A DNA stretch of 20,225 nt. It comes from a virus. Below the pieces are notes generated by a model. That model was not told the origin of the DNA and made no database searches. It saw only the letters and a list, made by a program, of their open reading frames with translations. Where the stretch lies: positions 1 through 20,225 of IMG/VR virus record IMGVR_UViG_3300005264_000197. One strand, 5' to 3'. Made by a program: the position numbers and the translations under genes. Of the stretch, positions 1,869-20,022 are shown piece after piece. Each line of letters begins with the position of its first letter. Within the stretch, counting starts at the first letter, position 1.

Positions 1869-2831
1869 TTAATTATCATATTCACTAATTGAATTTAATA
1901 AATCATCAGTATAATTTAAAGTACTAGTATAATCAAAAATTTTATTCATTAAAAAATTTTGATTTTTTTCATCTTCATCAACTTTGATATTATTTGGATT
2001 AGGGTAATTTTCAATTTTATTTTGAAGATTGGTTTTAAGACTTTTAATTGATATGGGTTTTTTGCCTGTTTCTTTAATTTTAACAGAAGTGGCTTTTTTT
2101 AGATATGATCCATTCCCTTTTTTACTTTTAATAATTTTATTAGGTCTTGTTATATCTGATGTAACAAATTCAGTATCAACGTCTCTTTCATTAAAAGTAA
2201 TCCAAATATCACCATCAAAATATTTTTTAGGATAATTTGCACTTACAAGTATTTCAAACATTGTCTTTCTAACACCTTCATGTGTTTGTAATACTATTTC
2301 AGGATTTACATATCTATCTCTTTCTTTATTTTGTTGTAAAGCAACCGAAACTTTATTCAATACCCATACCATATGAATATCTTTTGGTTTATAACCCATA
2401 TCATTACATAAAAAAACTGTTTTTTGAAATTTGTGCATATTTTTTAATGTTACATCAAAAATGATATTTGGTTTATGATCATTATTTGGATTAATTGTTT
2501 TTTTTAAAAGTTCTTGTTGTGCAGTATTTAAACCTGACTTTTTAATTACTGTATGAAGTAATGATACATGTTTTTCATTTTTCATATCCAGATCATTTAA
2601 ATTATCACCAAATTTTTTTTCAAGGTTTCTTCTGATAATGGCTGATTTTAATACCATTTTTTTAATATTATCAACATCAAATATTTTACCCTCAATACCT
2701 ATAAGATTTGATTGTATAAAACCTTTCCCAGAACCAGCACCACCAGCCATAATCAAAGCAGTATTATATTTGGGTCTTTTATTATTAAATGTTATCAGTG
2801 CTTCGTTTAAATAATTATTAAATCTTGTCAT
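1869..2831 (-). CDS. P-loop kinase, zeta-toxin/polynucleotide-kinase-like, with a capsid-targeting-like N-terminus
   Basis: A 320-residue protein. Residues 29-37 (AGGAGSGKG) form a Walker A loop with K36, and FDVDNIKKMV at 51-60 supplies the D-x-D pattern seen in zeta-toxin- and PNK-like kinases. Such enzymes move a phosphate from ATP to a small molecule, nucleic acid end or peptidoglycan precursor; the substrate here is unknown. The N-terminus, MTRFNNYLNE|AL, resembles the T4 capsid-targeting sequence (MKTYQEFIAE) with an L-x-E cleavage site, and is shared with several rightward late proteins. The C-terminal ~90 residues are Lys/Asn-rich and look flexible. It forms its own unit: a consensus promoter at 2885-2857 and a strong terminator at 1832-1797. 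The GGGAG site 8 bases before the ATG supports the start. Kinase fold is firm; head packaging is inferred. Confidence 0.8.
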   Translation of the reverse strand: MTRFNNYLNEALITFNNKRPKYNTALIMAGGAGSGKGFIQSNLIGIEGKIFDVDNIKKMVLKSAIIRRNLEKKFGDNLNDLDMKNEKHVSLLHTVIKKSGLNTAQQELLKKTINPNNDHKPNIIFDVTLKNMHKFQKTVFLCNDMGYKPKDIHMVWVLNKVSVALQQNKERDRYVNPEIVLQTHEGVRKTMFEILVSANYPKKYFDGDIWITFNERDVDTEFVTSDITRPNKIIKSKKGNGSYLKKATSVKIKETGKKPISIKSLKTNLQNKIENYPNPNNIKVDEDEKNQNFLMNKIFDYTSTLNYTDDLLNSISEYDN

Positions 2832-5825: not shown

Positions 5826-5916
5826 TTGATTTTATTACAAGTCATTTACTTTGGCACCAGGCAAAACACTAAAAAAAATTAAACATAAAAATAATTGTTT
5901 CACAAGGACAAAAATG
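5792..5916 (+). repeat. Leader element copy A, ahead of the PARP-like gene
   Basis: About 125 bases ending at the ATG of the PARP-like gene match 14603-14727 with nearly the same length. Landmarks in order: ATTGTTYCAC, AATAATGAAAAA, TAACTAATTGATTTTATTA, TTTACTTTG, ACCAGGCAAAACACT, AATTGTTTCACAAGGA, then ATG. The first block (ATTGTTYCACRAAATAATGAAA) resembles the last (AATTGTTYCACAAGGA-ATG), so the element is bounded by two copies of a ribosome-binding-like sequence. Confidence 0.8.
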
Positions 5917-8900
5917 ATAAAAGAAAATACATTTTACCAAAATAATAAAGAAAAACAAGATTTTGAAAAATCACCTACAAAATTAGGTAATGCATTTTGG
6001 ATTAACATAATTGGATTTATTGCTTTATATGATTTAAATAAAAATAATGCCAGACTTCACGCATATTTTCAACAAAAAGTTCAACTATCAAATGTTAATG
6101 ATAATTCAAATGATATTATATTAATTATTAAAATACTTGAATATAAAAAATTAATTAAACCATCTGTTGCACAAGAATTAACTAAATTACTTGCAAGAAT
6201 TAAAAAATTATCAGATATCAAAATAGATCAATTATTATTCAGAAAGCTTTTAAAGAAAATACCTATTAGTAAAGTTAAACCATCTGCCAAATTAAAACCT
6301 TTTATAACTGATTATAAAAAATCAGTAACATCATTACAAGATATGATTGATCCATTATATAACTTTGCCAAACAACAAAAAATTTGTGAAGAATACAAAT
6401 TAATGTGTAGAATAATCAAAAAAAATAATATATCAACAACTGATTTCACTACACCTAAAATAATTAATACACCAATTAAAATCAATGATACCAATACCGA
6501 TACTAATACCGATACTGACATTGACATTGTATATGATGATGAATGGTATCAAAATTTTAAAGACAACACACCAAATGATAAAGAATTTCCATTTGTTAAA
6601 AATAATAAAGAATTAGTTAAACTTTTTTTATTAAAATTTGTTAATATTGACTATATGTATAAAAAACGTCCTAATGTTAAAAATATGAAAACACAATTAA
6701 AGAAATTTGATACTAGTGCAAAAGAAATAATGTCAATTATTAACGAAAAAGATATAGAAGATATGCATAAAAATAATTTTCCTATTAATAACAAAAATTT
6801 AAGTTATTATTATGATAATAATAAATTATTTTCACCAATATCTGATACTTTTTTTAATCAATATTTAAATTTTGATAGATTTTATGAAATTTTTCCTTAC
6901 AAATATCTGATTAAAAAAAAATATCAAAAAAATATTAAAATGTCAGAAATTAATATTAAAGAAAGACTTACTATTATTAATAATTGGGATAATAATGATA
7001 TTCTTGATATGAAACAGTCATTTAATGATTTTTCTGTTTATAATTTACAAATATTATCACAATATCCAAATATCTGGAAAATGATAAAAAATATATTAAT
7101 TGTTAATGATGAATTATTTTTAAAACTTAATCATGCTGATTTAAAAATAATGCTTAAAAATAAAATACTTTATGACCTTATAAAAAATTGGTATAATATA
7201 ACATCTGATTCTTATAAAAATATGTTTAAATCAATTGTTTATAATGCTGATATGTTATATATGGTTAAATTTATTGATAATAATATTAATAAAGATGAGA
7301 TGTTATATATATCATTTTTAAACTGGATATATAATAAGACATCTTCAAGAATAATAGATTTTAATAAAATGTCAAGTTTTGAAATAGAAAAATGGTTAAA
7401 AAGTAAAAATAAATTAGAATCATTTAAAAAAGATTTCGAAGATCCAAAATATGATAAAATAACTATTATAACAGAGAGATATTCAAAATATTCAGTAAGA
7501 TATATTAATGTATTATGTAAATTTATTAATGAAAGAAAAAGACCTTTTGTTTTTGGTAATAAAGATCAATGTATAAATTTCGTATCATCGTTAGATAATA
7601 TTGAAGAAAAATGTAGACCTGTATTAGCTAAACACTTTCTTAATTATATTAAACAATTTGAAAAATTTATTCAAACATATTTAATACCATCTTCCTGGGA
7701 AAATTATTTAAATGATAATAATTATTTTGATCTATTAGATCATGTTATTGGATATATGTCAATGTTTTTTTTAAAAAACATATCTGTTTTTTTTATAGAA
7801 AAAAACATTGATAAATTTATTTTATTATCTAATAGAATAGATTTATATAAGGAAATATATCAAAAAAAACAATGGATAGTATTTACTGTTAATGACATGA
7901 AAGATTTATTAACAAAATCCAATACTATAACATTTACCAGAGAATTTGCTGATATGATATTTGGAAACACAACTAAAGAACCAAAAGATAGATGGCAACA
8001 ATGTAAAGACTTTCTTATTAAGAAAATAAATGAAAATCCCAACATGTCAGATGGTTTAATTGATGGAAAACAATTACTTAATGATGAATATCAAACCTTT
8101 CTTTTGAAAAATTTTAAAGATCGATTGAAAACTATTAATTTAATTAATACCTGTCTTAGATATTATTCTTTAAACGAAAAAGAAAAAAATAAACTATTTG
8201 ATTTTTTAATCAAAATATTTGATAACGAACAAAATTTAACTGATTTTATATCTAATCATATATCTAATCATATATTTAAAAATACAACATTAATAACTTT
8301 ATTAAGCAAATTAACTGATATAAATTCTATAAAAACTTTAATGAATAATAATCTCCAAATATCAAATGTAACAATACCATCTTTATTAAATGATTGGAAT
8401 TTTTTAAATATTATTATTGATAAATTAGATGATATAAAAGTAACAAATGAAGATTTTGATGAATATATAAATACAGTCTTTAAAGACAAAAAACTTACTA
8501 CTGTTATTAATGGTATAAGAAAAAATATTTTATATAGTGCTTTTGTTAAAGATATATATGATGATAATAAATCATTAATACAACCAATAGAAAAGATGAC
8601 ACAAGAAAGAATTAATCAAGTATTAAAATTTAATAATGTATCAATCAAACTTCCAACTGAATTGAGAAAAAAGAAAAATGAAAAACTTAAACCATATTTA
8701 AACAGAATTAAAAACAATATTCATAAAATGGAGATAAGTAAACCTTTACATATTGATAAAATTGAAGAAACAGAAGAAGAATTAGAAATTAAATCTGCAG
8801 AATATTTAAAGTATTATAATGGTAATCATGGTAATAGTGCTATAGAATTTCTTGAATCATTTAATGTTGATATGCCCAATGATGATCTTAAACAATGGAT

Positions 8901-9648
8901 GATAGATAATCCAGAACCAACAGTAATACCTGGATTTCATGGTACAGGTAGTATTGGTGCATCTATGATATTAAGATTTGGATTTAAAATTATACCTGCA
9001 GGTGACAAATCTATAGTTGGTAGAATGTTAGGTGATGGTATTTATATATCTAATATTATTGAAAAGGCTGCACAATATATTGGTGATACTGGTTTTAGTA
9101 GACGTCGTGGAACTATAGGATATATTTTAGAAACTGAATGTTATATAGGACAAAAAGAAATAAATCATAAAGTAGCTGGTGATTCAAGAGATAGAATATT
9201 ATCACCTGAATGGGTTATTTTTGATCCAAGATCACAAATAAAAATTGTTAAAGCACATAAAGTAAAAATGACAAGTAAAAAGTATATAAATTATTTAAAA
9301 AATAAACATAAAGTGAAAATTAATGAAAATAAATATTTTGGTAAAAAAATATTAAATGAAAATAAATTAATGAACATGATAACATATATTTTTTATGATG
9401 GGAATATTCCTGATGAAAATGGAACAATTATACCATTTGAAGATTTTGAAACTAAATATAAAAACAATAGTAATATAATTGTTACTTATGGACAATATGG
9501 ACCAGAAGTTAATATAAAAACTAATGCAGACATAATAGGTTCTGTTCATATACCTACTACATTAATATTTAAAGAACAAAACCCAGAAAATCTTTATGAT
9601 AAATATTTATCAATAATGGATGATATATTAAATGATTATGAAGATTAG
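5914..9648 (+). CDS. Giant protein with a C-terminal PARP-type (H-Y-E) ADP-ribosyltransferase domain
   Basis: A 1244-residue protein. I start it at the ATG at 5914, behind ACAAGGA; a TTG 63 bases earlier lies inside the repeated leader. About 990 residues of Lys/Asn/Ile-rich, probably helical sequence of no recognised family come first, with a low-complexity Asp-Thr run near 6490-6530. Then comes an ART fold: GFHGTGS with H1009, GDGIYISN with Y1044, a Lys-Ala-Ala-x-Tyr helix, and SPEWVIFDPRSQIKI with E1099. This aligns with PARP1 H862, Y896 and E988 and its following VYDxxQ strand. PARP-type enzymes move ADP-ribose from NAD+ to proteins, nucleic acids or small molecules. T4 Alt and ModA are the other (R-S-E) type, so this differs from the classical T4 arrangement. 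The gene is followed 8 bases later by the tagged amidoligase. Domain call firm; target unknown. Confidence 0.85.
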   Translation: MIKENTFYQNNKEKQDFEKSPTKLGNAFWINIIGFIALYDLNKNNARLHAYFQQKVQLSNVNDNSNDIILIIKILEYKKLIKPSVAQELTKLLARIKKLSDIKIDQLLFRKLLKKIPISKVKPSAKLKPFITDYKKSVTSLQDMIDPLYNFAKQQKICEEYKLMCRIIKKNNISTTDFTTPKIINTPIKINDTNTDTNTDTDIDIVYDDEWYQNFKDNTPNDKEFPFVKNNKELVKLFLLKFVNIDYMYKKRPNVKNMKTQLKKFDTSAKEIMSIINEKDIEDMHKNNFPINNKNLSYYYDNNKLFSPISDTFFNQYLNFDRFYEIFPYKYLIKKKYQKNIKMSEINIKERLTIINNWDNNDILDMKQSFNDFSVYNLQILSQYPNIWKMIKNILIVNDELFLKLNHADLKIMLKNKILYDLIKNWYNITSDSYKNMFKSIVYNADMLYMVKFIDNNINKDEMLYISFLNWIYNKTSSRIIDFNKMSSFEIEKWLKSKNKLESFKKDFEDPKYDKITIITERYSKYSVRYINVLCKFINERKRPFVFGNKDQCINFVSSLDNIEEKCRPVLAKHFLNYIKQFEKFIQTYLIPSSWENYLNDNNYFDLLDHVIGYMSMFFLKNISVFFIEKNIDKFILLSNRIDLYKEIYQKKQWIVFTVNDMKDLLTKSNTITFTREFADMIFGNTTKEPKDRWQQCKDFLIKKINENPNMSDGLIDGKQLLNDEYQTFLLKNFKDRLKTINLINTCLRYYSLNEKEKNKLFDFLIKIFDNEQNLTDFISNHISNHIFKNTTLITLLSKLTDINSIKTLMNNNLQISNVTIPSLLNDWNFLNIIIDKLDDIKVTNEDFDEYINTVFKDKKLTTVINGIRKNILYSAFVKDIYDDNKSLIQPIEKMTQERINQVLKFNNVSIKLPTELRKKKNEKLKPYLNRIKNNIHKMEISKPLHIDKIEETEEELEIKSAEYLKYYNGNHGNSAIEFLESFNVDMPNDDLKQWMIDNPEPTVIPGFHGTGSIGASMILRFGFKIIPAGDKSIVGRMLGDGIYISNIIEKAAQYIGDTGFSRRRGTIGYILETECYIGQKEINHKVAGDSRDRILSPEWVIFDPRSQIKIVKAHKVKMTSKKYINYLKNKHKVKINENKYFGKKILNENKLMNMITYIFYDGNIPDENGTIIPFEDFETKYKNNSNIIVTYGQYGPEVNIKTNADIIGSVHIPTTLIFKEQNPENLYDKYLSIMDDILNDYED

Positions 9649-9656
9649 GAGAAATA

Positions 9657-11279
9657 ATGAGATTTAAACAATATTTAATAGAAAAAACTAACAAAAAAGA
9701 ATTTGAATCATCTTTAAAAAATAAAAATATTATTGCTGGTTGTGAATTTGAATTTTATTTAAATCAAAATATATTTAATATTGATATTGATATTGAAACA
9801 CCAGAATTTAAAAAAATAAGAAATCAACTTGAAAATGAAATTAGTCAAGTTGATTCTGCTTTAGAAGATTATATTGATGAAATATCTAATATTAATGATA
9901 AAGAACAGAAAATTACTGATGAAATTATAGATTTAGAAGAAAAAATAGATACACTTGATGATGAAATTACAGATTTAGAAATTGATCAAATTGGTGTTGA
10001 TAAAGACACAAAAATTACTAAACAAATTGAAGACAATAAAAAATTACTTTATAAATTAAAAGATAAATTTGAAAATCTTCAAGAAGAATTAGATGATTAT
10101 AATGATAATGTATTACAAGATATAGCATATGATGATTTTATAAACAATTCAGCATCAACATATACATTACATTCATTACAACAGATTCTAAACTTATTAC
10201 AAGATTCAGGATGGTATGAAGAAGAAATTAATAGCGACTATATAAATCAAAAATTATTTGAATATTCTTTAGAAAACCAAGAAACAATAGATAATGTTAA
10301 TAATCTATTTACTGTCCTTTATAATTATAATTTAGATGATTTGATTTATGATTTAGAAAATAATAGTGAAAATATTGATAATATTGATATACCAACAGAA
10401 GATGATATTATGAATTTAAATTTTCCTATTAACATGAATCAAATACAAGAAATTACTGAGGATGGTTCACTTGGTCCAGGTGGTGTGGAAATAGTCACTA
10501 ATCAACATCAAGTAGGTGATTTAGTTGATGTTATTGATGAAGTATTTGATTGGATTGATGACGTAGGATATGTAAATAATGATTGTGGATTTCATGTTCA
10601 TATGTCTATGAAAACTAAAAATGAAATTGACCCATTAAAATTATTATTATTCATAGAAGAAGGTAGAATATTTCAAGATTTTCAAAATAGAGTATCAAGT
10701 AACTGGGCAGAATCAATTAAAAAAGGACATTTTGATAAATTAGAAACACTTAGTTATTCAGATGTTATATCTATTGCAAAAAAAGAAAAAATTGATAAAA
10801 AAATGAATACTGAAAAATATTTAGGTGTTCATTTGATTGATCTTGAACAGAATCATGTTGAATTTAGATATATGGGTGGTTTTGATTATCATAAAAAATT
10901 TCATGAAGTTAAAGAAGTTATTGCTAATTACGCTCATTGGATATCTATTGCATGTGATCCAGACTATAAGAAAAAAGAATATATTTTAAAAGTTAATAAA
11001 ATGACTAATCATTTCAATTACTTATATTTATCACAAGTAATTAAAACTTTTAATAGTTTGGTTGATAATGACATAAAAAATCAAAAAATTAAATTAAATA
11101 TTATTAATAAATTACGGCAGAAAATTTTAAAACCTGTAATGTTACAATTAAAATCAATACCTAAGCCATCTAATAAGATAAAAATTAATAAAAATTTACA
11201 AAGATGTGGAAATAATGTAGCTGAAAAGTTATTTAAAAATAAATATATACCTGAAATTAATAGATTTAATAAAAGATAA
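9657..11279 (+). CDS. Amidoligase (glutamine-synthetase-like carboxylate-amine ligase) with capsid-targeting-like N-terminus and coiled-coil insert
   Basis: A 540-residue protein. Family motifs: G28-C-E30-F-E32, a GGVEIV segment with E278, CGFHVHMS with H313 and H315, and VEFRYMGG with E402 and R404. These match the amidoligase family, which uses ATP to join a carboxylate to an amine and is predicted to act on peptides, peptidoglycan-like or small molecules. Between the first and second motifs lies an insertion: residues ~50-150 are strongly heptad-patterned, acidic and probably coiled coil, and ~150-260 are helical. The N-terminus MRFKQYLIE|KTN closely resembles the T4 capsid-targeting sequence and its cleavage site, so I infer packaging in the head. 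RBS AGGAG, 8 bases after the PARP-like gene, so co-transcribed. Family good; substrate unknown. Confidence 0.8.
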   Translation: MRFKQYLIEKTNKKEFESSLKNKNIIAGCEFEFYLNQNIFNIDIDIETPEFKKIRNQLENEISQVDSALEDYIDEISNINDKEQKITDEIIDLEEKIDTLDDEITDLEIDQIGVDKDTKITKQIEDNKKLLYKLKDKFENLQEELDDYNDNVLQDIAYDDFINNSASTYTLHSLQQILNLLQDSGWYEEEINSDYINQKLFEYSLENQETIDNVNNLFTVLYNYNLDDLIYDLENNSENIDNIDIPTEDDIMNLNFPINMNQIQEITEDGSLGPGGVEIVTNQHQVGDLVDVIDEVFDWIDDVGYVNNDCGFHVHMSMKTKNEIDPLKLLLFIEEGRIFQDFQNRVSSNWAESIKKGHFDKLETLSYSDVISIAKKEKIDKKMNTEKYLGVHLIDLEQNHVEFRYMGGFDYHKKFHEVKEVIANYAHWISIACDPDYKKKEYILKVNKMTNHFNYLYLSQVIKTFNSLVDNDIKNQKIKLNIINKLRQKILKPVMLQLKSIPKPSNKIKINKNLQRCGNNVAEKLFKNKYIPEINRFNKR

Positions 11280-11342
11280 TGTTACTAAATTTAACCTTTA
11301 TAATAAAAATATGGTTTAATGTTACTAAATTTAACCTTTATA
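11277..11342 (+). repeat. Two direct 26-bp repeats ahead of terminase
   Basis: The same 26 bases (starting TAATGTTACTAAATTTAACC) occur at 11277-11302 and 11317-11342, a period of 40. The first copy begins with the TAA stop of the amidoligase gene. Each copy ends in TTTATA and runs into a -10-like TATAAT (11299-11304) or TATAGT (11339-11344). No good -35 box is at the right distance. This could be a tandem phage promoter or protein-binding site controlling terminase and neck genes. Confidence 0.7.
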
Positions 11343-11355
11343 GTAGGAATAATAA

Positions 11356-12897
11356 ATGCCAATAAGATATGATGATTATGTTAAATCTCCTGGTTTAGAA
11401 GAAGAATATACTCCTGAAATGATCAGAGAGTTGGCATTATGCACAAAAAATAGATTACATTTTATAAAAAAACATATTAAAATAGTTACTGGTGATAACG
11501 GTGTCGTAAAATTTGATGATTATATGTATGACTTTCAAGAATCATTAATAAATGACTTTATAAAATATAGATTTACTATTAATTTATGTGGTAGACAGCA
11601 GGGCAAAACAACAGTTGTTGGTGCATATGCTATGTCATATGCTTGTTTTGAAGAACATAAGACCATTGGTATAGTATCAAATAAAGAAGCTAGTGCCAAG
11701 TCATTTTTAGCAAGAGTCAAATATATGTATGAACAAATACCATCATATTTAAAACCAGGTGTTATTAGATGGGCAGAAAAATCAGTTGAATTTGATAATC
11801 ATGTTAAAATAATGATAGCTGCAACCAGTAAAGATAGTTTTCGTGGTGAACCTATTAATTTATTAATATGTGATGAACTTGGATTTGTCGATCCTCCATG
11901 GAAGGCCATTGAATTTTGGAATAGTAATTATCCAACCATTTCAGCATCTACAACCTCAAAAATTATCATTATTAGTACACCAAATGGTATGTATAACTTG
12001 TTTCATAGATTATATACTGGTGCAGTGGAAGGTAAAAATACATTTAAACCTAATAAATATGATTGGACATGTGTACCAGGCAGAGATAAAGCATGGGCAG
12101 ATGAACAAAAGGCAAATCTTGGTAGATTACAATTTAATCAAGAATATGCAATACAGTTCCTTGGTTCTAGTTCAACAGTAATTGATTTTAATATACTTGA
12201 ATCACTTAATCTTTGTATTGAAGAACCAAATTGGTATGAAGAAAAAAATAAATTAAAAATATGGGAAAAACCAATACAAGGTGCAAAATATGTAGTTGCT
12301 AATGATGTTGCCAAAGGTACTGGTAAAGATTATTCTGTTAGTCAAATACTTAAAATACATTCAACTAATCCATTAAAAATAGAACAAGTTGCTGTATTTA
12401 GAGATAATTATACTGATGTATATACTTTCTCATTTATCATAGATAAATTATGTAAATGGTATAATAATGCATTTATAATGGTTGAAAACAATTCAGACGG
12501 TGCTGCAGTTGTATCACAATTATGGTGGGAACTAGAAAATGATAATTTAGTTAATACAGGTGGTAAAGAAAAAGATCTTGGTATAAGAGCAACCAGACTA
12601 ACTAAACCAAAAGCAGTATTATTTATGAAAAAACTTATTGAAGACGGTATGTTATTATTAAAAGATAGTAATACAATAACTGAATTAAATGACTTTATAG
12701 ATAAAGGTAATGGTAAATATGCAGCAAATAATTATCATGATGATACTGTTTCTGCATTATATTGGGCATGTTATTTGTTTCAAATGAAAGATCTAATTGA
12801 TGATGTTAATTTTATGACAAAAAATGATGATGATGATGGATGGGGTATCATTGATAGTAATATAAATAATGACGAATTTGATTTTATAATAATGTAA
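11356..12897 (+). CDS. Terminase large subunit, T4 gp17-like
   Basis: The DNA-packaging motor: ATPase plus nuclease that cuts concatemers and pumps DNA through the portal. N-terminal ATPase domain: Walker A CGRQQGKTT with K84 (residues 78-86) and Walker B LLICDELGF with D173-E174. A coupling motif, IIISTPNG, follows. C-terminal RNase H-like nuclease domain: VANDVAKG with D317, MVENNSDG with E377, and NYHDDTVSA with D462/D463, the acidic cluster seen in T4 gp17. At 513 residues it is somewhat shorter than T4 gp17 (about 610), mainly at the N-terminus, and the C-terminal tail is acidic (NDDDDG). RBS TAGGAA lies just after the second 26-bp repeat. The neck gene gp13 follows 12 bases later. The small terminase subunit is not seen in this window. 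Confidence 0.95.
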   Translation: MPIRYDDYVKSPGLEEEYTPEMIRELALCTKNRLHFIKKHIKIVTGDNGVVKFDDYMYDFQESLINDFIKYRFTINLCGRQQGKTTVVGAYAMSYACFEEHKTIGIVSNKEASAKSFLARVKYMYEQIPSYLKPGVIRWAEKSVEFDNHVKIMIAATSKDSFRGEPINLLICDELGFVDPPWKAIEFWNSNYPTISASTTSKIIIISTPNGMYNLFHRLYTGAVEGKNTFKPNKYDWTCVPGRDKAWADEQKANLGRLQFNQEYAIQFLGSSSTVIDFNILESLNLCIEEPNWYEEKNKLKIWEKPIQGAKYVVANDVAKGTGKDYSVSQILKIHSTNPLKIEQVAVFRDNYTDVYTFSFIIDKLCKWYNNAFIMVENNSDGAAVVSQLWWELENDNLVNTGGKEKDLGIRATRLTKPKAVLFMKKLIEDGMLLLKDSNTITELNDFIDKGNGKYAANNYHDDTVSALYWACYLFQMKDLIDDVNFMTKNDDDDGWGIIDSNINNDEFDFIIM

Positions 12898-12909
12898 AAA
12901 GGAAATATC

Positions 12910-14295
12910 ATGTTACATGGAAATACAAAAACTGAATTAAGAGAAATAGTTAAAAGAAGACTCGGTGCCCCAATGGTTAAACTTGAAATATGTGATGATC
13001 AAATAAATGATTTTATAGATTATTCAACCTCAAATTTCATTAAATGGGCAGTTGGTAATGCAACAGATATAATATGGTTCACTATACCATTAAAGGCAGG
13101 TAGAAAATTTTATGACTTACCAAAAGGTGTTATTGACATACTTGGATATGAAGAATCAAATGTAGGTGAAGGTGGTATAAATACATTATTTACTATAGAA
13201 AATTATCTATACAATCAAGGTTATTTTGATTCATTATTTTCCATGCCATATTCAGTAATAGATTTTCATATCGTAAATGACTGGATGGAAACACTTGACA
13301 GATATCAACCTGATAAATACTCATGGAGATTTCATAAAATAACAAATCAATTAGAAATTACTCCAACACCAAAATACGGCAATGATAATATTATTATAAA
13401 AAGACCAAATCCAAATACTAATATAATTACTGATTATCAGTTAGATAGCCCTGGATATATTATGATTAAAGCAAATGTTATTCAAGGTTCAACTTTACCA
13501 AATATTATTAGAGGATGGGAAGATGTTTGTAAAGAAATATTACCAAGTGATGAATTAAGAATAATTAGAACAGAAGAAGCTAATATTAATTATTTTGCAT
13601 TAACCAATAATGCTATTAATCAAGAAATGACAATTATAAAAAATGGTTCTGAATATAATAAATGGAAATGGTTAGATGATAATGGCAAATCTATTGAATG
13701 GACATCTCCTAATGATATTATTCAAGGCGATGAATTATTATTAAAATATAATACTATCAAAATAGAAGAAAATTTGATTGATGATAATGCAAATATTAAA
13801 ACATATAACCAAATTATAAATAATTATATAATAACAGTTATAGAATTAACAACCAAAACACTTTTATTATCTGAAAAAACATTATCACCAGAAAATATTA
13901 TTATTAAAAGAAATGGTAATAGTTATTTTTATGGAAATGACTTTCTAGTAGATAATGATGATCAAACTATAAATTTTGCTGGAAAAACATTAGATGGTAT
14001 ACTTCAAGATCAAGACTCTTTAGAAATTATATTTACATCATTAAATTCTACACTTGAAGAATATAAAGAAGATTTATATGGTAGACATTGGATAATCGAT
14101 ATGACAGTGGCTATGACAAAACAAACTTTAGGGTTAATTAGAAGAAAATTTTCCCAATTTCAATCAATTGGAAATAGTGGTATATCACTTGATGGTGAAT
14201 CACTTATTAGTGAAGCTAGAGAAGAAATTGATAAACTTAATGAAGAATTACGAGATGAAGAAGTATATGAAGGTGGTTATATTATAATGGGGTAA
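12910..14295 (+). CDS. Neck (head-to-tail connector) protein, T4 gp13-like, with a central insertion
   Basis: A structural protein that closes the portal vertex and helps join the tail. The N-terminus, ELREIVKRRLGAPMVKLEI then CDDQINDFIDYSTSNF, and the C-terminus, YGRHWIIDMTVAMTKQTLGL then ISLDGESLISEAREEIDKL, match the two conserved ends of gp13-type proteins of T4-like phages as I remember them. Those are about 300 residues; this one is 461. The extra length is a central segment, roughly residues 170-390, rich in beta-type sequence, that I do not recognise (repeated I-I-K-R-N-G and D-D-N patterns). It may be an exposed decoration domain. RBS AAGGAA, 12 bases after terminase. Its last codons (ATTATAATGGGGTAA) are the left end of the 120-bp tandem duplication. 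Confidence 0.8.
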   Translation: MLHGNTKTELREIVKRRLGAPMVKLEICDDQINDFIDYSTSNFIKWAVGNATDIIWFTIPLKAGRKFYDLPKGVIDILGYEESNVGEGGINTLFTIENYLYNQGYFDSLFSMPYSVIDFHIVNDWMETLDRYQPDKYSWRFHKITNQLEITPTPKYGNDNIIIKRPNPNTNIITDYQLDSPGYIMIKANVIQGSTLPNIIRGWEDVCKEILPSDELRIIRTEEANINYFALTNNAINQEMTIIKNGSEYNKWKWLDDNGKSIEWTSPNDIIQGDELLLKYNTIKIEENLIDDNANIKTYNQIINNYIITVIELTTKTLLLSEKTLSPENIIIKRNGNSYFYGNDFLVDNDDQTINFAGKTLDGILQDQDSLEIIFTSLNSTLEEYKEDLYGRHWIIDMTVAMTKQTLGLIRRKFSQFQSIGNSGISLDGESLISEAREEIDKLNEELRDEEVYEGGYIIMG

Positions 14296-14524
14296 ATTTA
14301 TGAAAAAAGAATTTGACAATACAGATCAAACATACTATAATATTGAAAAAGATAATTATGAAAAGAATTTAAATAATAATTATATAAAATTAATGCTAGA
14401 ATTATAATGGGGTAAATTTATGAAAAAAGAATTTGACAATATAGATCAAACATACTATAATATTGAAAAAGATAATTATGAAAAGAATTTAAATAATAAT
14501 TATATAAAATTAATGCTAGAATTA
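14281..14524 (+). repeat. Tandem 120-bp duplication
   Basis: 14281-14400 is repeated at 14401-14520, with four further shared bases and a single difference (C at 14322, T at 14442). Each copy starts with the last four codons and stop of gp13, then a ribosome binding region and the first ~34 codons of a small gene. Near identity points to a very recent duplication. Confidence 0.95.
14300..14407 (+). pseudogene. Truncated first copy of the duplicated small gene
   Basis: ATG at 14300 with a GGGG-type site upstream opens a 35-codon frame identical to the start of the next gene except Thr for Ile at residue 8. It stops at 14405-14407 because the duplication joint brings in the gp13 tail sequence (GAATTATAA) in place of the rest of the gene. 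It is probably a by-product of the duplication, though it could still be translated into a 35-residue peptide. Confidence 0.65.
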
Positions 14525-14620
14525 AATGGTGTTGTTAATGATGAAGTTGTTAATGATGAAGTTGTTAATCAAATGGTAACAGTCATACACAATACAAAAA
14601 TCAATTGTTCCACGAAATAA
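14420..14620 (+). CDS. Small Asn/Glu-rich protein, unknown
   Basis: A 66-residue hydrophilic protein starting MKKEFDNIDQTYYNIEKDN, with a predicted helical, charged N-terminal half. A 15-bp tandem repeat gives VVNDE-VVNDE-VVNQ at about residues 37-50. The first half is duplicated immediately upstream. The last codons (about 14603-14620) fall inside leader element copy B, so the native C-terminus may have been replaced when the following cassette arrived. No family recognised. It is the first gene of the accessory block between gp13 and gp14. Confidence 0.5.
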   Translation: MKKEFDNIDQTYYNIEKDNYEKNLNNNYIKLMLELNGVVNDEVVNDEVVNQMVTVIHNTKINCSTK

Positions 14621-14727
14621 TGAAAAACTTAACTAATTGATTTTATTATAAATCGTTTACTTTGATGACAGGCAAAAACACTTAAAAATAATTTAAAAAA
14701 ATCAATTGTTCCACAAGGAGAAAAATG
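14603..14727 (+). repeat. Leader element copy B, ahead of the 100-residue tagged protein
   Basis: This is the second copy of the ~125-bp leader found at 5792-5916, ending at the ATG at 14725. It shares AATAATGAAAAA, TAACTAATTGATTTTATTA, TTTACTTTG, CAGGCAAAAACACTTA and AATTGTTCCACAAGGAG. It also holds TATAAATC (14647-14654), a one-base variant of the late promoter box; copy A has TTACAAGT there, so the promoter reading is weak. Confidence 0.8.
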
Positions 14728-15027
14728 AGATTAAAAGAATATATGTTAAATGAAAAAAAGAATGATTATATTATATATCATGGTTCATATACAAGTGCAG
14801 TATCTTCAATGATGGATTTTGTTAAAAAAAATGGATATACAACAGATGAAGATGATGTTTTTACATCAATAACGGCTGGACCACCTAAACCGGGCAAAGG
14901 CAAAACAAACAGAATTCATCTTGAATTATATAAAAATGGGAAAAAACAAAAACAAAAATTACATGCTCAAGTATATAATAGAGGCACATCAGGTAATACA
15001 TTTGAATTAAATATGTATATTCAATAA
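14725..15027 (+). CDS. Small phage protein with capsid-targeting-like N-terminus
   Basis: A 100-residue protein. The first residues, MRLKEYMLNE|KK, fit the tag seen on the amidoligase and the 356-residue protein, with L-N-E as a possible prohead-protease site. The body (YHGSYTSAVSSMMDFVKKNG, GPPKPGKGKTNRIHLELYKNG, then a C-terminal GNTFELNMYIQ) resembles, from memory, a family of small proteins in other T4-like phages whose C-terminus reads YELNxYI. Its function is unknown to me. RBS AAGGAG is part of leader copy B. If the tag works, the ~90-residue mature protein would ride inside the head. The next gene is the amidohydrolase, 77 bases on. Confidence 0.7.
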   Translation: MRLKEYMLNEKKNDYIIYHGSYTSAVSSMMDFVKKNGYTTDEDDVFTSITAGPPKPGKGKTNRIHLELYKNGKKQKQKLHAQVYNRGTSGNTFELNMYIQ

Positions 15028-15053
15028 AAAATATTTGACTATTCATTAATATT

Positions 15054-15105
15054 ACCAGGCAAAACACTTAAATTTTAAACATAAAATGTTTAAGGAGAAA
15101 TAAAA
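15054..15105 (+). repeat. Short third copy of the leader element, with a hairpin beside the ribosome binding site
   Basis: ACCAGGCAAAACACTTA (15054-15070) is nearly identical to 5856-5871 and 14668-14684, and the following TTAAACATAAAA and AAGGAG also match copy A. Within it TTAAACAT (15075-15082) and ATGTTTAA (15086-15093) form an 8-bp, three-base-loop hairpin touching the AAGGAG site, which might modulate translation of the amidohydrolase. Confidence 0.65.
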
Positions 15106-15842
15106 TGTTTCTACATATACCACATAGTTCTACAAATATAATTAATGGTATTGATATACCATATTTAAAAAAAAATCTTGATTGGTTTACTGATTGGTTT
15201 ACTGATGATTTATTTAAATACAAAAATGTAGAACAAATTATATTTCCTTATAGTAGATTATGTGTTGATGTTGAAAGATTAATTAATGATCCAATGACCA
15301 AATTTGGTAAAGGTATGTTTTATGTTACTGATGTTGATGGTATAGAAATAAAAAGACGTATTAGTGATCAAACATTAAAAAGACTTTACAAAAATCATCA
15401 TGACAGATTAACTCAAGTCACGACAGATTGGTTATGTTATAAACAATATGGTATAATTGTTGACTGTCATTCTTTCCCAAATAAACCATTTCCATGGGAA
15501 AATGCAACTATAAGACCTGATATTTGTATTGGTCATGATCAATTTCATACACCAAATGATTTAATAATAAATCTTATAGAATATTTTAAAAAATATCAAT
15601 TAAATGTAACTATCAATACTCCATATGAAGGTACAATTATACCAAATTCTTTTTATAAAAAGAAAAGATGCAAGTCTATTATGATTGAAGTTAATAGAAG
15701 ATTATATCTTAATGATGAATATGGTAAAAATTATAAATATGATTATATTAAAAGAATCATATTTAATGCATTAGATATAATTAATAACTGGGAAAAAAAT
15801 AAAAATGACAGATATATTAAACAAGTTGGAAAAAATACTTGA
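15105..15842 (+). CDS. N-formylglutamate amidohydrolase-like metallohydrolase
   Basis: A 245-residue protein. Motifs of the FGase family: HIPHSS (H4, H7) at the very N-terminus, SRLCVDVERL (R51, D55, R58), VDCHSFP (D120, H122) and EVNRRLYL (E195, N197, R198). Together these form the zinc and substrate site. Known members remove the formyl group from N-formyl-L-glutamate in histidine breakdown, or act on other amides and peptides. In a phage the substrate is unknown; with an amidoligase elsewhere in the same late region, an amide- or peptide-modifying role is possible. A 15-bp in-frame duplication gives DWFTDWFTDD at about 27-35. RBS AAGGAG. The next gene starts 38 bases before this one ends. 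Confidence 0.85.
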   Translation: MFLHIPHSSTNIINGIDIPYLKKNLDWFTDWFTDDLFKYKNVEQIIFPYSRLCVDVERLINDPMTKFGKGMFYVTDVDGIEIKRRISDQTLKRLYKNHHDRLTQVTTDWLCYKQYGIIVDCHSFPNKPFPWENATIRPDICIGHDQFHTPNDLIINLIEYFKKYQLNVTINTPYEGTIIPNSFYKKKRCKSIMIEVNRRLYLNDEYGKNYKYDYIKRIIFNALDIINNWEKNKNDRYIKQVGKNT

Positions 15843-16407
15843 AACTTTTGCTCAAATGGGTAAATTATCACCAGAAGAACTTCAAAAAGGTCAATATTTA
15901 GATCCAAAAAATAAAGATAATTTTAAACAAGTAACTGGTAGAGTTTTCTATCAATCTATTAATAAAATAAGACAAAATGATATATCAAAAATAGATAGAG
16001 GTCTTAAACCGAAAGGTTTAAAATCTTTATCTGTTTATAACGTAAACGAATACGAAAAAATGCGTTGTTATCTTGGTAAGAATAATTCATCAGGATATTG
16101 TATTGCACATGGTAATGAATTAGTTAGTGTTTTTAGTTCTCAAAAATCATCTATTGACGCTATAATGATACATGCTATAAAAAATGGTGCCAGAAAACTT
16201 GATTGTTTTGCAATAAGAAACAAAACAAAAATAAGTGGTCATTTATATAAAATATATTCTAAATTTGGATTTAAAATTGATAAATCAATGAATGATGGTG
16301 ATATAAATGAGCCGTATGCAATTATTAATGGTATAAGTAATTATGTTAATGATCAAGGTGATGTTGAACCAAATAACCCACAAGTTGTTATTTTTATGAA
16401 AAGATAA
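15805..16407 (+). CDS. GNAT-like acetyltransferase-fold protein
   Basis: A 200-residue protein. The central part, GYCIAHGNELVSVFSS, then SIDAIMIHAIKNGARKLDCFA, then LYKIYSKFGFKID, follows the strand-helix-strand-helix order of GNAT enzymes, including the closing Y-x-x-F/GF motif. The usual R/Q-x-x-G-x-G/A acetyl-CoA loop is not obvious, so it may be a divergent or non-acetylating member; some GNAT-like proteins act as amidoligases. The N-terminal ~60 residues are helical. It overlaps the FGase-like gene by 38 bases, so the two are translationally linked. The start at 15805 has only a weak upstream purine run. Fold call moderate, activity unknown. Confidence 0.6.
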   Translation: MTDILNKLEKILETFAQMGKLSPEELQKGQYLDPKNKDNFKQVTGRVFYQSINKIRQNDISKIDRGLKPKGLKSLSVYNVNEYEKMRCYLGKNNSSGYCIAHGNELVSVFSSQKSSIDAIMIHAIKNGARKLDCFAIRNKTKISGHLYKIYSKFGFKIDKSMNDGDINEPYAIINGISNYVNDQGDVEPNNPQVVIFMKR

Positions 16408-16408
16408 T

Positions 16409-16762
16409 ATGAAACTAGCTATAGTTGGATCCAGAACATTTAAAAATTACAAGTTGGTATGTACAGAAATAGACAAATTAACAAAATTTGGTCTTTGCAG
16501 TATAAATAAAATCATATCAGGTGGTGCTGTAGGTGCAGATTCTTTAGGTGAAAAATATGCTAATGAACATAACATAATGACCATGATTTTTAAACCTGAT
16601 TGGAAAAAATACGGTAAAGCTGCTGGATTTATAAGAAATGAAGATATTATAAAAAATTGTGATTTTGTCCTTGCCTTTTGGTGTAATAATAGTAAAGGTA
16701 CTGAACATTCAATTAAATTAGCTAAACAATATAATAAAGGATTGAAAGTTATTGACTGCTAG
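16409..16762 (+). CDS. SLOG-superfamily (YspA/DUF2493-like) nucleotide-binding protein
   Basis: A 117-residue Rossmann-like protein. Motifs in order: MKLAIVGSRTF (GSR at 7-9), a central IISGGAVGADSLGEKYA with the GGAxGAD loop, KPDWKKYGKAAGFIRNEDI with the conserved RN, and VLAFWCNNSKGTEHSIKLA with the S-x-GT motif. This matches the YspA branch of SLOG proteins, which bind nucleotides or NAD-like ligands; some SLOG proteins are sensors in anti-phage defence. The length is typical and all motifs are intact. It starts one base after the GNAT-like gene and overlaps the endonuclease frame by 11 bases. What ligand it binds in the infected cell is unknown. Confidence 0.85.
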   Translation: MKLAIVGSRTFKNYKLVCTEIDKLTKFGLCSINKIISGGAVGADSLGEKYANEHNIMTMIFKPDWKKYGKAAGFIRNEDIIKNCDFVLAFWCNNSKGTEHSIKLAKQYNKGLKVIDC

Positions 16763-17816
16763 ATTAACATATTCACATGTAAAAAGTTTTATTGAATCTA
16801 AAGGATATACTTTATTAAGTAAAGAATATGTTAATGCAAATACAAAATTAACTGTTAAATGTAATAAAGGGCATATATGGTACCCAATTTATAATAATAT
16901 CAAAAATGGACAAGGATGTTCTATTTGTGGTAAACAATCAATGATTCAAAAAATGAAATTAACATATAATGAAGTTAAACATTTTATTGAATCTAAAGGA
17001 TATACTTTATTAAGTAAAGAATATATTAATGCAAATACAAAATTAACTGTTAAATGTGATAAAGGGCATATCTATAAAGTAAAATATGGTCATTTCCAAC
17101 AAGGTCATAGATGTGCTATTTGTCAAGGTGTAAAAAAATTAACATATAATAAAGTTAAAAATTATATTGAATCAAAGAATTATTCTTTGTTAAGTAAAAA
17201 ATATAGTAATAATAAAAATAAATTAACTGTTAAATGTGATAAAGATCATATTTATAAAGTGTCATTTTCTGACTTTCAACAAGGTAATAGATGTGCTATC
17301 TGTCAAGGTGTAAAAAAATTAACATATGATTTTGTTAAAAATTATATTAATTCAAATGGATATACTTTATTAAGTAAAAAATATGAAAATAATTCTACTA
17401 AATTAACTATTAAATGTAATAAAAATCATGTTTATAAATCATCTTTTAGTAATTTTAAAAAAGGTAGAAGATGTCCAATTTGTAATAAAAAAAATGTAAC
17501 ATCAAAAGGTGAAAGAGATGTTGCAAAATTTATAACATTATTAAATATAAATATAATAAAAAATGATCGTACTCAAATATTAAATCCCGTAACTGGACAT
17601 TATCTTGAACTAGATATATGGATACCTAATTTGAATAAAGCTATTGAATATAATGGTGCTTATTGGCATTCTTTACCCAATAACCAAATTAATGATCAGA
17701 TAAAAAAAGAACAATGTAAAAAATTGAATATTGATTTATTAATAATTGATGACATTGAATGGAATAATAATCAAAAATATCAAAAACAAATTATAAAGGA
17801 ATTTATTAATGGCTAA
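16752..17816 (+). CDS. Putative homing endonuclease: four zinc ribbons plus a Vsr-like nuclease domain
   Basis: A 354-residue protein. Residues 5-249 are four tandem ~60-residue repeats, each reading LTYxxVKxxIESKGYTLLSK, then KLTVKCxKGHI and CxICxG, with two Cys pairs per zinc ribbon and likely DNA contact. Residues ~250-354 form a Vsr/EDxHD-type nuclease: GERDVAKF (E254), YLELDIWIPNLNKAIEYNG (D288, E300), YWHS (H307) and a closing LLIIDDIEW. This fits freestanding phage homing endonucleases. No in-frame ATG precedes repeat 1, so I take TTG at 16752, with AAAGGA about 10 bases upstream. The gene overlaps the SLOG gene and ends 8 bases inside gp14, whose ribosome binding site it contains. This is a tight fit between the accessory block and gp14. 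Confidence 0.85.
   Translation: MTARLTYSHVKSFIESKGYTLLSKEYVNANTKLTVKCNKGHIWYPIYNNIKNGQGCSICGKQSMIQKMKLTYNEVKHFIESKGYTLLSKEYINANTKLTVKCDKGHIYKVKYGHFQQGHRCAICQGVKKLTYNKVKNYIESKNYSLLSKKYSNNKNKLTVKCDKDHIYKVSFSDFQQGNRCAICQGVKKLTYDFVKNYINSNGYTLLSKKYENNSTKLTIKCNKNHVYKSSFSNFKKGRRCPICNKKNVTSKGERDVAKFITLLNINIIKNDRTQILNPVTGHYLELDIWIPNLNKAIEYNGAYWHSLPNNQINDQIKKEQCKKLNIDLLIIDDIEWNNNQKYQKQIIKEFING
16764..17498 (+). repeat. Four tandem zinc-ribbon-coding repeats (about 180 bp each)
   Basis: Units start near 16764, 16959, 17139 and 17319; the first has about five extra codons at its end. Units 1 and 2 are almost identical over ~100 bases, and units 2 and 3 share the segment coding RCAICQGVKK. The pattern indicates stepwise tandem duplication within the gene. 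Confidence 0.9.
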
Positions 17817-18558
17817 TTGTCAAGATATACAAAATCAACAACAAGCTATAAGTAATTGTAATAATTGCATTATACCCGGAACACCTTTATGGAATTTGTT
17901 TAATCAAGAAAATGATTGTGAACAACAACTATTTCAATCAATAGTTGAAGAATTTACTGATATAGCCGGATTCCCAATTAAATTCTGGATGTCATTACCT
18001 GAACATGACGATATTTATGGTGAAGATGCCACAAATACATATGCTGAACCAGTTGAAACCAGACTTATATATGAACCAAGTGAAGAAAATGGTATTATTA
18101 ATGCCTTTGGCTTTCAATCAGATGATGTCTTACAATATACTATGATACCAAAAACAACCTTTATAAGAGATATTGGCACAACTTTTCAAACTTATCATCC
18201 ATCAGGAGATATTATACAACCAGTAGTAGGTGATGTCATAACAACTTTATGGAATAACCGTAATTACGAAATAGTTGATCTTGGATCAGAAGAAAGAATT
18301 TTCATGGGACAAAAACATATTTGGGAAATGATATTAAGACCTTATAGATTTAGTGAACAAAGTGATAAAGCAAGAGAAATTCATTTACCACCAAATGAAG
18401 ATGATATTACTGTTATTGATGAAGAAATGGATAATCAACCAGGCCCAGATGAACAAAATTATTCAAGTGATAGATATGGCGATAATTCATGGGTAGAAGA
18501 CGAGAGTGACGATGTTGATGATTATAATGATGTTGATAAAAAAATTTTTGGATTATAA
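17809..18558 (+). CDS. Neck protein, T4 gp14-like
   Basis: A 249-residue structural protein, close to T4 gp14 (256). The core order, FWMSLPEHDDIYGEDATN, then VETRLIYEP, then QYTMIPKTTFIRDI, then GDVITTLWNNRNYEIVDLG and HIWEMILRPYRFSEQSD, agrees with gp14-type neck proteins as I remember them (GEDA motif, a beta domain, then a closing R/L-x-x-Y/F-x-x-S-D/E). It forms the head completion ring with gp13, on which the tail docks. The N-terminus has an unusual NCNNC pair, and the last ~45 residues are very acidic (WVEDESDDVDDYND). It starts inside the last codons of the endonuclease. In T4 gp13 and gp14 are adjacent; here ~3.5 kb of accessory genes separate them. Confidence 0.75.
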   Translation: MANCQDIQNQQQAISNCNNCIIPGTPLWNLFNQENDCEQQLFQSIVEEFTDIAGFPIKFWMSLPEHDDIYGEDATNTYAEPVETRLIYEPSEENGIINAFGFQSDDVLQYTMIPKTTFIRDIGTTFQTYHPSGDIIQPVVGDVITTLWNNRNYEIVDLGSEERIFMGQKHIWEMILRPYRFSEQSDKAREIHLPPNEDDITVIDEEMDNQPGPDEQNYSSDRYGDNSWVEDESDDVDDYNDVDKKIFGL

Positions 18559-18573
18559 AGATTTAAACAATAT
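18559..18573 (+). repeat. Isolated copy of the capsid-tag coding sequence without a start codon
   Basis: AGATTTAAACAATAT, exactly the codons for RFKQY used at 9660-9674 and 18955-18969, follows directly on the TAA stop of gp14. It lacks an ATG, and the frame ends after about 14 codons. It may be the remnant of a tagged gene or a recombination scar; chance is possible in such AT-rich DNA. Confidence 0.4.
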
Positions 18574-18634
18574 ATAACGATATTAGAATTAAATATCTTG
18601 TAACAAATAATATTAACTATTAAAGGAATTAAAA

Positions 18635-18922
18635 ATGACTAATATAATAAATAAAATTGAAAATTATTTAAATGAAAAAAATGAATATGATAAAATGAAA
18701 GAAATATTATCACTAAATGGTATTATTTGCATTAAAGGTGATGTAGCAGTTGCTTCAGGTATTTTAACACTTGAAGCAGAAAAAAAGTTTTTTACTGCAA
18801 AATCATTTAAAAATGGTAATGATTACATTGTTGATTATAAATTATACCAACAAATTTCAAAATTTAATAAACAAGTTTTGAAAAAATGGCATGAAGAAAA
18901 TAATTTACCATATTATGGTTAA
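18635..18922 (+). CDS. Small protein, possibly head-targeted, unknown function
   Basis: A 95-residue protein starting MTNIINKIENYLNEKNEYD. The YLNE|K within the first 14 residues resembles the end of the capsid-targeting tag on the neighbouring gene (MRFKQYLNE|S), but the start of the tag does not match, so targeting is only suggested. The rest contains a probable helix, a strand pair (GIICIKGDVAVASGILTLEA), and a C-terminal helix ending LPYYG. No family is recognised. RBS AAAGGA. It is 76 bases after gp14 and 29 bases before the tagged 356-residue gene, so probably co-transcribed with both. Confidence 0.6.
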   Translation: MTNIINKIENYLNEKNEYDKMKEILSLNGIICIKGDVAVASGILTLEAEKKFFTAKSFKNGNDYIVDYKLYQQISKFNKQVLKKWHEENNLPYYG

Positions 18923-18951
18923 AAAATATTTCATCTTGAAGGTCAAATAAA

Positions 18952-20022
18952 ATGAGATTTAAACAATATTTAAATGAATCAGCATCTATGACAACAGTAC
19001 TACAAGAAAGTTTACATTGTGTTGCTCTTGGAATAATTCAATTAACAAATAAAAATATATCAACAATCGAATTGTTAAATGGTAACTTATTTTCAAAATC
19101 ATATGATGATTATTGTAACGTTGATATAGCACTTCAACCACTATTTGATTTTGCTAATAATAATCCATCTTGGGTAACTGCTGTTGTTAATAATTCTAAT
19201 ACATTATATAATTCAAAATTCTTAAAAGGTAAATATATTTTTTATAGAAGTAATGGAATAATGAAATCAGTATATGATACATTTAAATCTTTGTCATCTA
19301 AAGAAGGTATAAAATTAAATCCTGATAAATGGAATCCAGGTGATATATGGGCATCTAAAATTTCTTCAATCCCAACATTTAAATCTTTATCTGAATTTAA
19401 TGAATTTATATCAAAATCATTAAAAAAAGGTAATTTAATAGGCATATCATTAAAAAAATCAAAAGGTATGCCCAAAATTGATTATATTGAACAAACAGTT
19501 AGTGGTAATAATATAAAATTTAAAGGTATCAAAAAACCACAATCAGTATTTAATACAGGTATAAATATCTTAACTGATAATCCAAAAAAATCTTTAAATG
19601 TGAGAAGTTTTAGAATATCAAAAGCTGCAGGAATTACTAGTGAAATTATTGATAAATCATCATCAGCTAGACATGGAAAAGCAGCACTTACAAAATTTAT
19701 CAAACAATATAATATACCACAAATGACACTTTCTGATTTTAGAAAAAAATATAATGAAACAGAAATAATGAATAATATGATTATATCATTATGGAAAGAT
19801 GCTGGACATGTTTTTAATAAAAATAAAATTGATAAAGATTGGAGTGTTAGACAATCTAAAGGTGAAAATATGGTAGGTTATTATAGATCAATTATTAATA
19901 GTCTTCAAATAGGTGTATTTTTAAATCAAAATAAAGGTATGGCTGATAAAATTTTAACTGATATCTTTACAACAGCATCTTCAATGGGTAAACATTCAAG
20001 TGATTTTATAAAAGTTTATTAA
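18952..20022 (+). CDS. Tagged late protein of unknown function
   Basis: A 356-residue protein. MRFKQYLNE|SAS is nearly identical, including codons, to the start of the amidoligase and resembles the T4 capsid-targeting sequence with an L-x-E cleavage site. Beyond the tag it is soluble, basic and rich in Lys and Ser. A central block, LNPDKWNPGDIWASKI, then SLSEFNEFISKSLKKGNLIGISLKKSK, recalls a motif (WNPADIW followed by a GISLKK strand) that I believe occurs in other uncharacterised phage proteins, but I cannot name a family or activity. Followed by two hairpins and a late-type promoter. If packaged, it would be one of the larger internal head proteins of this phage. Confidence 0.75.
   Translation: MRFKQYLNESASMTTVLQESLHCVALGIIQLTNKNISTIELLNGNLFSKSYDDYCNVDIALQPLFDFANNNPSWVTAVVNNSNTLYNSKFLKGKYIFYRSNGIMKSVYDTFKSLSSKEGIKLNPDKWNPGDIWASKISSIPTFKSLSEFNEFISKSLKKGNLIGISLKKSKGMPKIDYIEQTVSGNNIKFKGIKKPQSVFNTGINILTDNPKKSLNVRSFRISKAAGITSEIIDKSSSARHGKAALTKFIKQYNIPQMTLSDFRKKYNETEIMNNMIISLWKDAGHVFNKNKIDKDWSVRQSKGENMVGYYRSIINSLQIGVFLNQNKGMADKILTDIFTTASSMGKHSSDFIKVY

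Follow-up and report, generated by a model that had tools for sequence, protein, structure and literature searches.

The window, which comprises the entire 20,225-base virus record IMGVR_UViG_3300005264_000197 and represents a 20-kb genome fragment, carries four genes whose products share a short N-terminal sequence, referred to here as the tag, in front of otherwise unrelated bodies (Table 1). Read from the genes, these N-termini are MRFKQYLIE, MRLKEYMLNE and MRFKQYLNE for three rightward genes (starting at 9657, 14725 and 18952, respectively) and MTRFNNYLNE for a leftward kinase gene (starting at 2831), all present exactly as quoted in an earlier note on this DNA. That note had placed the set between positions 9657 and 20022, which holds for the three rightward genes, while the kinase gene lies outside this interval on the minus strand. 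The bodies behind the four tags received distinct Pfam and PHROG assignments, in agreement with their description as unrelated, and at least one of them is clearly an enzyme. The designation of the genes as late finds no support in the sequence: the late-promoter motif TATAAATA occurs 13 times in the window versus 15 occurrences expected, and is thus not enriched.

A strict motif, M-x(1-6)-[FY]xx[FY][LIMV]xE, is matched by three of the 23 predicted window proteins (those starting at 9657 and 18952, and the kinase), with 0.02 matches expected (P ~1e-6), and over the six frames, which contain 949 ATG codons, it occurs only at these three, every one of them a gene start. Permutation of the motif (200 versions) gave a mean of 0.17 matches in the window, compared with the three observed. 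The tag starting at 14725 falls outside the strict motif, having a leucine for the first aromatic residue and one residue inserted before L-N-E. The search for further starts of this type added one weak fifth candidate, MTNIINKIENYLNE at 18635 on the plus strand, which the earlier note had overlooked and which conforms to a looser motif only; no other strict start is present among the 949 ATGs.

Table 1. Genes, tags and putative cleavage sites of the window, with the tagged proteins listed first.
Feature	Coordinates	Strand	Evidence or remark
P-loop kinase, Zeta-toxin-like, phrog_5268, 320 amino acids (aa)	1869..2831	-	Zeta_toxin 3e-9; phrog_5268 5e-80
Kinase tag MTRFNNYLNE, followed by putative cut point	2802-2831	-	part of the 1869..2831 gene
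Amidoligase-like protein, 540 aa	9657..11279	+	via Atu_ph07 homologue; tag MRFKQYLIE at 9657-9683
100-aa protein	14725..15027	+	domain of unknown function; tag MRLKEYMLNE at 14725-14754
356-aa protein, phrog_1462 family	18952..20022	+	invariant DKWNPGDIW; tag MRFKQYLNE at 18952-18978
95-aa protein, weak fifth candidate MTNIINKIENYLNE with putative cut point	18635..18922	+	looser motif only
Large protein with C-terminal PARP-type ADP-ribosyltransferase domain	5914..9648	+	phrog_18612 8e-83; ATG 5914 likely start
Possible internal site YFGKKILNE in the PARP-domain protein	9334-9360	+	putative, cleavage predicted
Terminase large subunit, T4 gp17 type	11356..12897	+	PF03237 2.6e-18; PF17289 1.8e-8
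Neck protein, T4 gp13 type	12910..14295	+	phrog_211 head-tail adaptor Ad2 7.6e-18
Neck protein, T4 gp14 type	17809..18558	+	phrog_679 head closure Hc2 6.6e-8

The tags resemble the capsid-targeting sequence (CTS) of the T4 proteins IPII and IPIII (MKTYQEFIAE), which similarly display 9-10 N-terminal residues of the form aromatic-x-x-aromatic-[LI]-x-E on unrelated bodies. Suppressor genetics of T4 IPIII assigned targeting mainly to residues 4 and 7 and processing to residues 8 and 10, gp21 cleaves after L/I-x-E, and the CTS was proposed earlier to let T4-like phages package varied proteins (PMC9026906). The three strict window tags keep the IPIII spacing exactly (targeting 4/7, processing 8/10). 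Tag length is 9-10 residues in all four proteins, which places the tag within the 10-19 N-terminal residues expected of a CTS; the ring residues F or Y occupy both targeting positions in three of the four tags (9657, 18952 and the kinase), with Leu at the first in the tag of 14725, and a gp21-type L/I-x-E is present in all of them (LIE, LNE, LNE and LNE). The likeness to the T4 CTS drawn in the earlier note is upheld by this agreement at four residues set by T4 genetics, on many unrelated bodies. The window also resembles T4 in its T4-type packaging and neck genes; it differs in that the T4 internal proteins are small and basic, whereas a kinase, an amidoligase-like enzyme and a 356-aa protein are among the window bodies. 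The window N-termini are best read as belonging to the already known T4 CTS, with a wider enzyme cargo than is usually described, and we assign a probability of roughly 0.8 to the reading that the tagged bodies are packed in the head, cut by a gp21-type protease and ejected with the DNA.

As a positive control, the DNA pattern for the tag recovered T4 ipII and ipIII, as well as gp61.1 (MKTFKEFIKE). The latter, a hypothetical protein of 54 aa (L180:567-731; T4 18966-19130, minus strand), starts with a near-perfect CTS and could be an unrecognised internal head protein, so that the tag nominates a candidate of this kind in T4 itself. Short tagged Lys-rich proteins resembling gp61.1 were observed in several contigs.

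The homologues of the tagged window proteins were compared for the presence of the tag. The kinase matches PF06414 with 37 bits, above the 22.3 cut-off, and carries the P-loop GGAGSGKG at residues 30-37. Its N-terminus reads MTRFNNYLNE/ALITF (a slash denotes the putative cut point), and its relatives in GAP161 and VmeM-32 start with MKSFKDFTSLDE/ALITF and MLQSFKEFSKQIDE/ALITF, the [LI]xE/A junction being preserved across the kinase homologues of T4-like phages although the spacing varies. The phrog_5268 kinases of the Straboviridae (RB43/GAP161 type) are like the window kinase in sequence (41% identical) and in their CTS-like start ending in [LI]DE/ALITF; they are mostly annotated as hypothetical. 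In Vibrio phage VmeM-32 the neighbour of the kinase gene encodes an N-formylglutamate amidohydrolase-like protein (L003:2245-3846), and a gene of this kind is also found in the window (15105-15842). The amidoligase identity that the earlier note gave to the 9657 protein is supported only through its Atu_ph07 homologue (29% over 181 aa), which matches PF12224 (Amidoligase_2) at 5e-7 and has no tag; the direct match of the window protein is weak (E 0.053, 13.8 bits, below the 22-bit cut-off). No relatives were found when the terminase and the amidoligase were queried against the viral contigs.

The domain of the 100-aa protein is present in 19 other viral contigs. In some of them it is preceded by MISFSQYLIEA, and elsewhere it is located inside long proteins, where its boundary is preceded, with two exceptions among the sequences inspected, by ISEA, LDEA, LEEA, VSEA or FTEA, as would be expected of an internal gp21-type site. 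Fusions with a boundary of the form [LIVF]xEA were seen in L007, L008, L009, L015, L016 and L019, and the position of this element at the domain edge suggests a polyprotein-like release by the prohead protease. In the structural model of the 100-aa protein, residues 1-13 are disordered and the chain is folded thereafter; the viral structure library gave no convincing match to it, a missing match being no evidence of a new fold. The 356-aa protein belongs to a family with at least 569 contig matches, and its two closest full-length homologues are tagged (L188, MRLKQYLLE, 50% identity; L189, MKFKEFITE, 42% identity). Among 34 members sampled, eight more are tagged besides these two and the remainder are untagged or truncated, the tag being absent from many distant homologues. 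The tag is therefore modular, since the members of one family are partly tagged and partly untagged. The model of the 356-aa protein (predicted local distance difference test, pLDDT, 89.5) is disordered at residues 1-10 (<50) and folded after them; comparison with the PDB gave no convincing match (best Z 3.9), which again is no evidence of a new fold.

Viral contigs were scanned with the motif M-K-x-F-K-x-[FY]-x-x-E, using a codon-permuted motif as control and defining a gene start as the start of an open reading frame (ORF) of at least 50 aa. Among the matches listed, 111 of 126 tag-motif matches were located at gene starts, versus two of 22 for the codon-permuted control. The 117 tagged ORFs among the matches listed fall into 60 body clusters, and the residue following the Glu, which is unconstrained in the pattern, was Ser in 44 and Ala in 22 of the 119 matches listed (66/119 together). 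Pfam domains on the listed tagged ORFs include adenylate kinase, HD, GNAT, cytidylyltransferase, methyltransferase and, weakly, Zeta-toxin. The gp21 protease (PF03420) was identified in all seven long contigs located by means of the tag; phiKZ and SPO1 have no gp21, and phiKZ shows no motif start in 280 kb. At the level of gene starts, the motif was counted seven times in C48C1 (permuted mean 1.2), six times in S-CREM2 (1.5), ten times in G015 (0.77) and four times in T4 (1.0). Based on these counts, and on HTVC008M, which has gp21 and no tagged gene, the tag is common in T4-like phages without being universal to them. The related 110-kb contig G015 encodes a protein 42% identical to the 356-aa protein and ten tagged ORFs, one of them for an S-adenosylmethionine (SAM) lyase (PF23780, scoring above its cut-off) and another for a HAD-like protein. 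In four of its tagged proteins (L273:11928-14822, minus strand; L272:10657-11460) a common YRG motif occurs early in the body; by eye they are ADP-ribosyltransferase-like, without Pfam support. The C48C1 cytidyltransferase (L179:3015-4358) is probably annotated from too late a start codon; read from an upstream start it begins MIKNFSQYLLEEEREVYFTFGRMNPPTIGH, which makes it a tagged enzyme.

Published virion proteomes of relatives link the tag to the particle. For the Synechococcus phage S-CREM2, 52 of 219 proteins were detected in virions (PMC10665884, Table 3). The three S-CREM2 proteins with the strict motif are all virion-detected (P = 0.013 versus 52/219), and admitting Phe in place of the aliphatic residue raises this to four out of four (P = 0.003), namely a SAM hydrolase, an APH-like kinase, a cytidylyltransferase and a 237-aa protein. 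Detection is 5/6 for a looser motif and 7/10 (P = 0.002) for the widest definition, in which the tag may begin at any of roughly the first 20 residues. The widest definition adds a Cas9-like nuclease (L184:7704-10313), with the tag-like LRFASFMAEA at residues 17-26, and also a baseplate protein, probably as a chance match. The strict figure is the safest, because the wider definitions were set with the data already known. The cytidylyltransferase T4-GC190, a different enzyme from the window cargo, is tagged in the cyanophages S-SM1, S-CREM2 and P-SSM2 (gene starts MKKFSAFLNEA, MKNFSSFLTEA and MKSFSQFLTET, respectively), and was detected in purified virions of S-SM1 (PMC3037559) as well as in those of S-CREM2; the passages of these publications that explain its presence in virions do so without mention of the tag.

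The earlier note had proposed a head cargo that includes enzymes. This part of its proposal gains support from the occurrence of the tag on unrelated bodies in gp21-bearing T4-like viruses, and from the tagged enzymes in two cyanophage proteomes; packaging, cleavage and injection in the window virus, and the roles of its cargo, are predicted by analogy. During prohead assembly, the tagged proteins would attach to the internal core through the ring residues [FY]xx[FY]; cleavage after [LI]-x-E by a gp21-type protease would follow, leaving the folded body inside the head, and the bodies would be ejected together with the DNA at infection. The cargo would consist of the P-loop kinase, the amidoligase-like enzyme, the 100-aa domain and the 356-aa protein, which would probably act as early host take-over or counter-defence factors. 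Cleavage is indirectly supported by the Ser/Ala preference after the Glu, by the [LIV]xE at the domain boundary of fused homologues, and by the disorder that ends near the predicted cut. For the SAM-degrading enzymes tagged in G015 and S-CREM2, a counter-restriction role may be envisaged, as for T4 IPI.

Several observations weigh against the CTS reading. The 20-kb contig shows no head-shell module, and neither gp21 nor a scaffold or capsid gene was identified in it; in the related contigs G014 (27 kb) and G015, which are either incomplete or too far diverged, gp20, gp21 and gp23 could not be recognised. MRLKEYMLNE fits the motif only loosely, HTVC008M lacks tagged genes despite its gp21, and SPO1, which has no gp21, gave three motif matches, although these are unconvincing and none resembles the MK.F.. 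starts. The set of tagged S-CREM2 proteins is small (3-10 proteins), and its authors allow for the co-purification of proteins highly expressed in infection (PMC10665884).

Other explanations were weighed against the same data. According to the one that survives best, which we nevertheless consider unlikely, the tag binds the prohead core, but the proteins it marks serve as structural or scaffold components, either lost from the head or retained in it, and not as delivered effectors. The T4 core proteins gp22 and gp67 are likewise cleaved at L/I-x-E (PMC9026906), and several tagged bodies in the contig scan are short and without enzyme domain; set against this are the kinase and the amidoligase-like enzyme in the window cargo, and the tagged SAM hydrolase, kinase and cytidylyltransferase in mature virions. 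It is less probable again, and by a clear distance, that the tagged proteins enter proheads in a lineage whose protease does not cut, with the tag retained. An Asp at position 10 of the T4 sequence blocks cutting while still allowing targeting (PMC9026906), the gp21 of the window virus was not seen in the 20-kb fragment, and some window tags end in LxE/K, but none of the four tags has lost [LI]xE, and the kinase homologues retain it even where the spacing differs.

Slightly less credible still is a mobile 5' module, consisting of start codon, leader and first codons, that was copied by recombination and aids translation without a targeting role. The 9657 and 18952 genes are indeed identical over their first 20 coding bases, and a possible relic of tag DNA is located near 18559. 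However, the DNA upstream of the tagged genes is dissimilar, relatives hold the protein pattern with other codons and spacing, and neither the Ser/Ala bias after the Glu nor the association of the tag with virion presence fits a role in translation. A shared leader acting at the DNA level alone was rejected. A fortuitous likeness between short amphipathic N-termini of an AT-rich genome, where such motifs arise easily in Lys/Phe/Tyr/Asn-rich proteins (SPO1 with its three spurious matches being a case in point), is rejected statistically as next to impossible, given P ~1e-6 under composition models, the 111/126 versus 2/22 matches at gene starts among those listed, the absence of motif starts from the 280 kb of phiKZ, and the tags still carried by the closest full-length homologues of the 356-aa protein.

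Returning to the CTS reading, its wider form is well supported, in which many enzymes of environmental T4-like viruses carry the tag and the tag would explain the enzymes reported from virion proteomes. We are inclined, with some reserve, to go further and propose that in environmental T4-like viruses a modular head-loading tag very widely delivers whole sets of enzymes (kinases, SAM-degrading and nucleotide-handling enzymes, and even a Cas9-like nuclease) at infection, that internal [LI]xE sites let gp21 free domains of fused virion proteins, and that such cargo can be read from sequence alone. Enzymes recur in purified cyanophage virions, where the authors concede that co-purification may be involved, and the accompanying tag turns this recurrence into a testable rule; for T4-like viruses that have not been cultured, it also provides a route to listing which proteins would be injected. 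To judge from the literature searched, the breadth of the enzyme cargo and its connection with published proteomes seem new, and a text search of the literature for tag sequences (MKTFKQ, for example) retrieved no paper.

Among the neighbouring genes, the terminase has its nearest relatives in T4-like phages (~37% identity). In four homologues of the PARP-domain protein (from pf16, Moby, Ah1 and X1), an aligned F-rich [LIM]xE element is located just behind the ADP-ribosyltransferase (ART) domain: FTNFINE/A in pf16, FSELLTE/S in Ah1, FEEHLME/A in Moby and FEDYMME/K in X1, with FGKKILNE/N in the window. Within this family the post-ART element was seen in the window protein (5914-9648), L006, L281, L282 and L283, and it may represent an internal gp21 site. 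T4 Alt is a head-packed, ejected enzyme cut by gp21 at both ends, including its C-terminus (PMC9026906), and the PARP-domain protein of the window could be its counterpart, with a site at the C-terminus. It differs from Alt in its PARP-type domain and in having no demonstrated Alt homology and no N-terminal tag seen; the parallel with the C-terminal cut of Alt is suggestive only.

No RNA family and no tRNA were found in the window. A direct repeat of 83 nt (83% identical, at 5784-5866 and 14595-14677) precedes the genes for the PARP-domain protein and the 100-aa protein; it has no Rfam match, and its core CAGGCAAAACACT recurs ahead of 15105. The end of the gp13-type gene contains a tandem duplication of 120 nt (99% identical, at 14281-14520). 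The protein encoded at 16752-17816 is composed of four repeats of ~60 aa, which are CxxC-rich and by eye zinc-ribbon-like, and a C-terminal endonuclease-like part, and has relatives in G015. Ahead of the 18635 gene, AGATTTAAACAATAT (18555-18575) exactly repeats a stretch of the tag DNA found in 9657 and 18952, has no ATG, and is perhaps a decayed tag near 18559.

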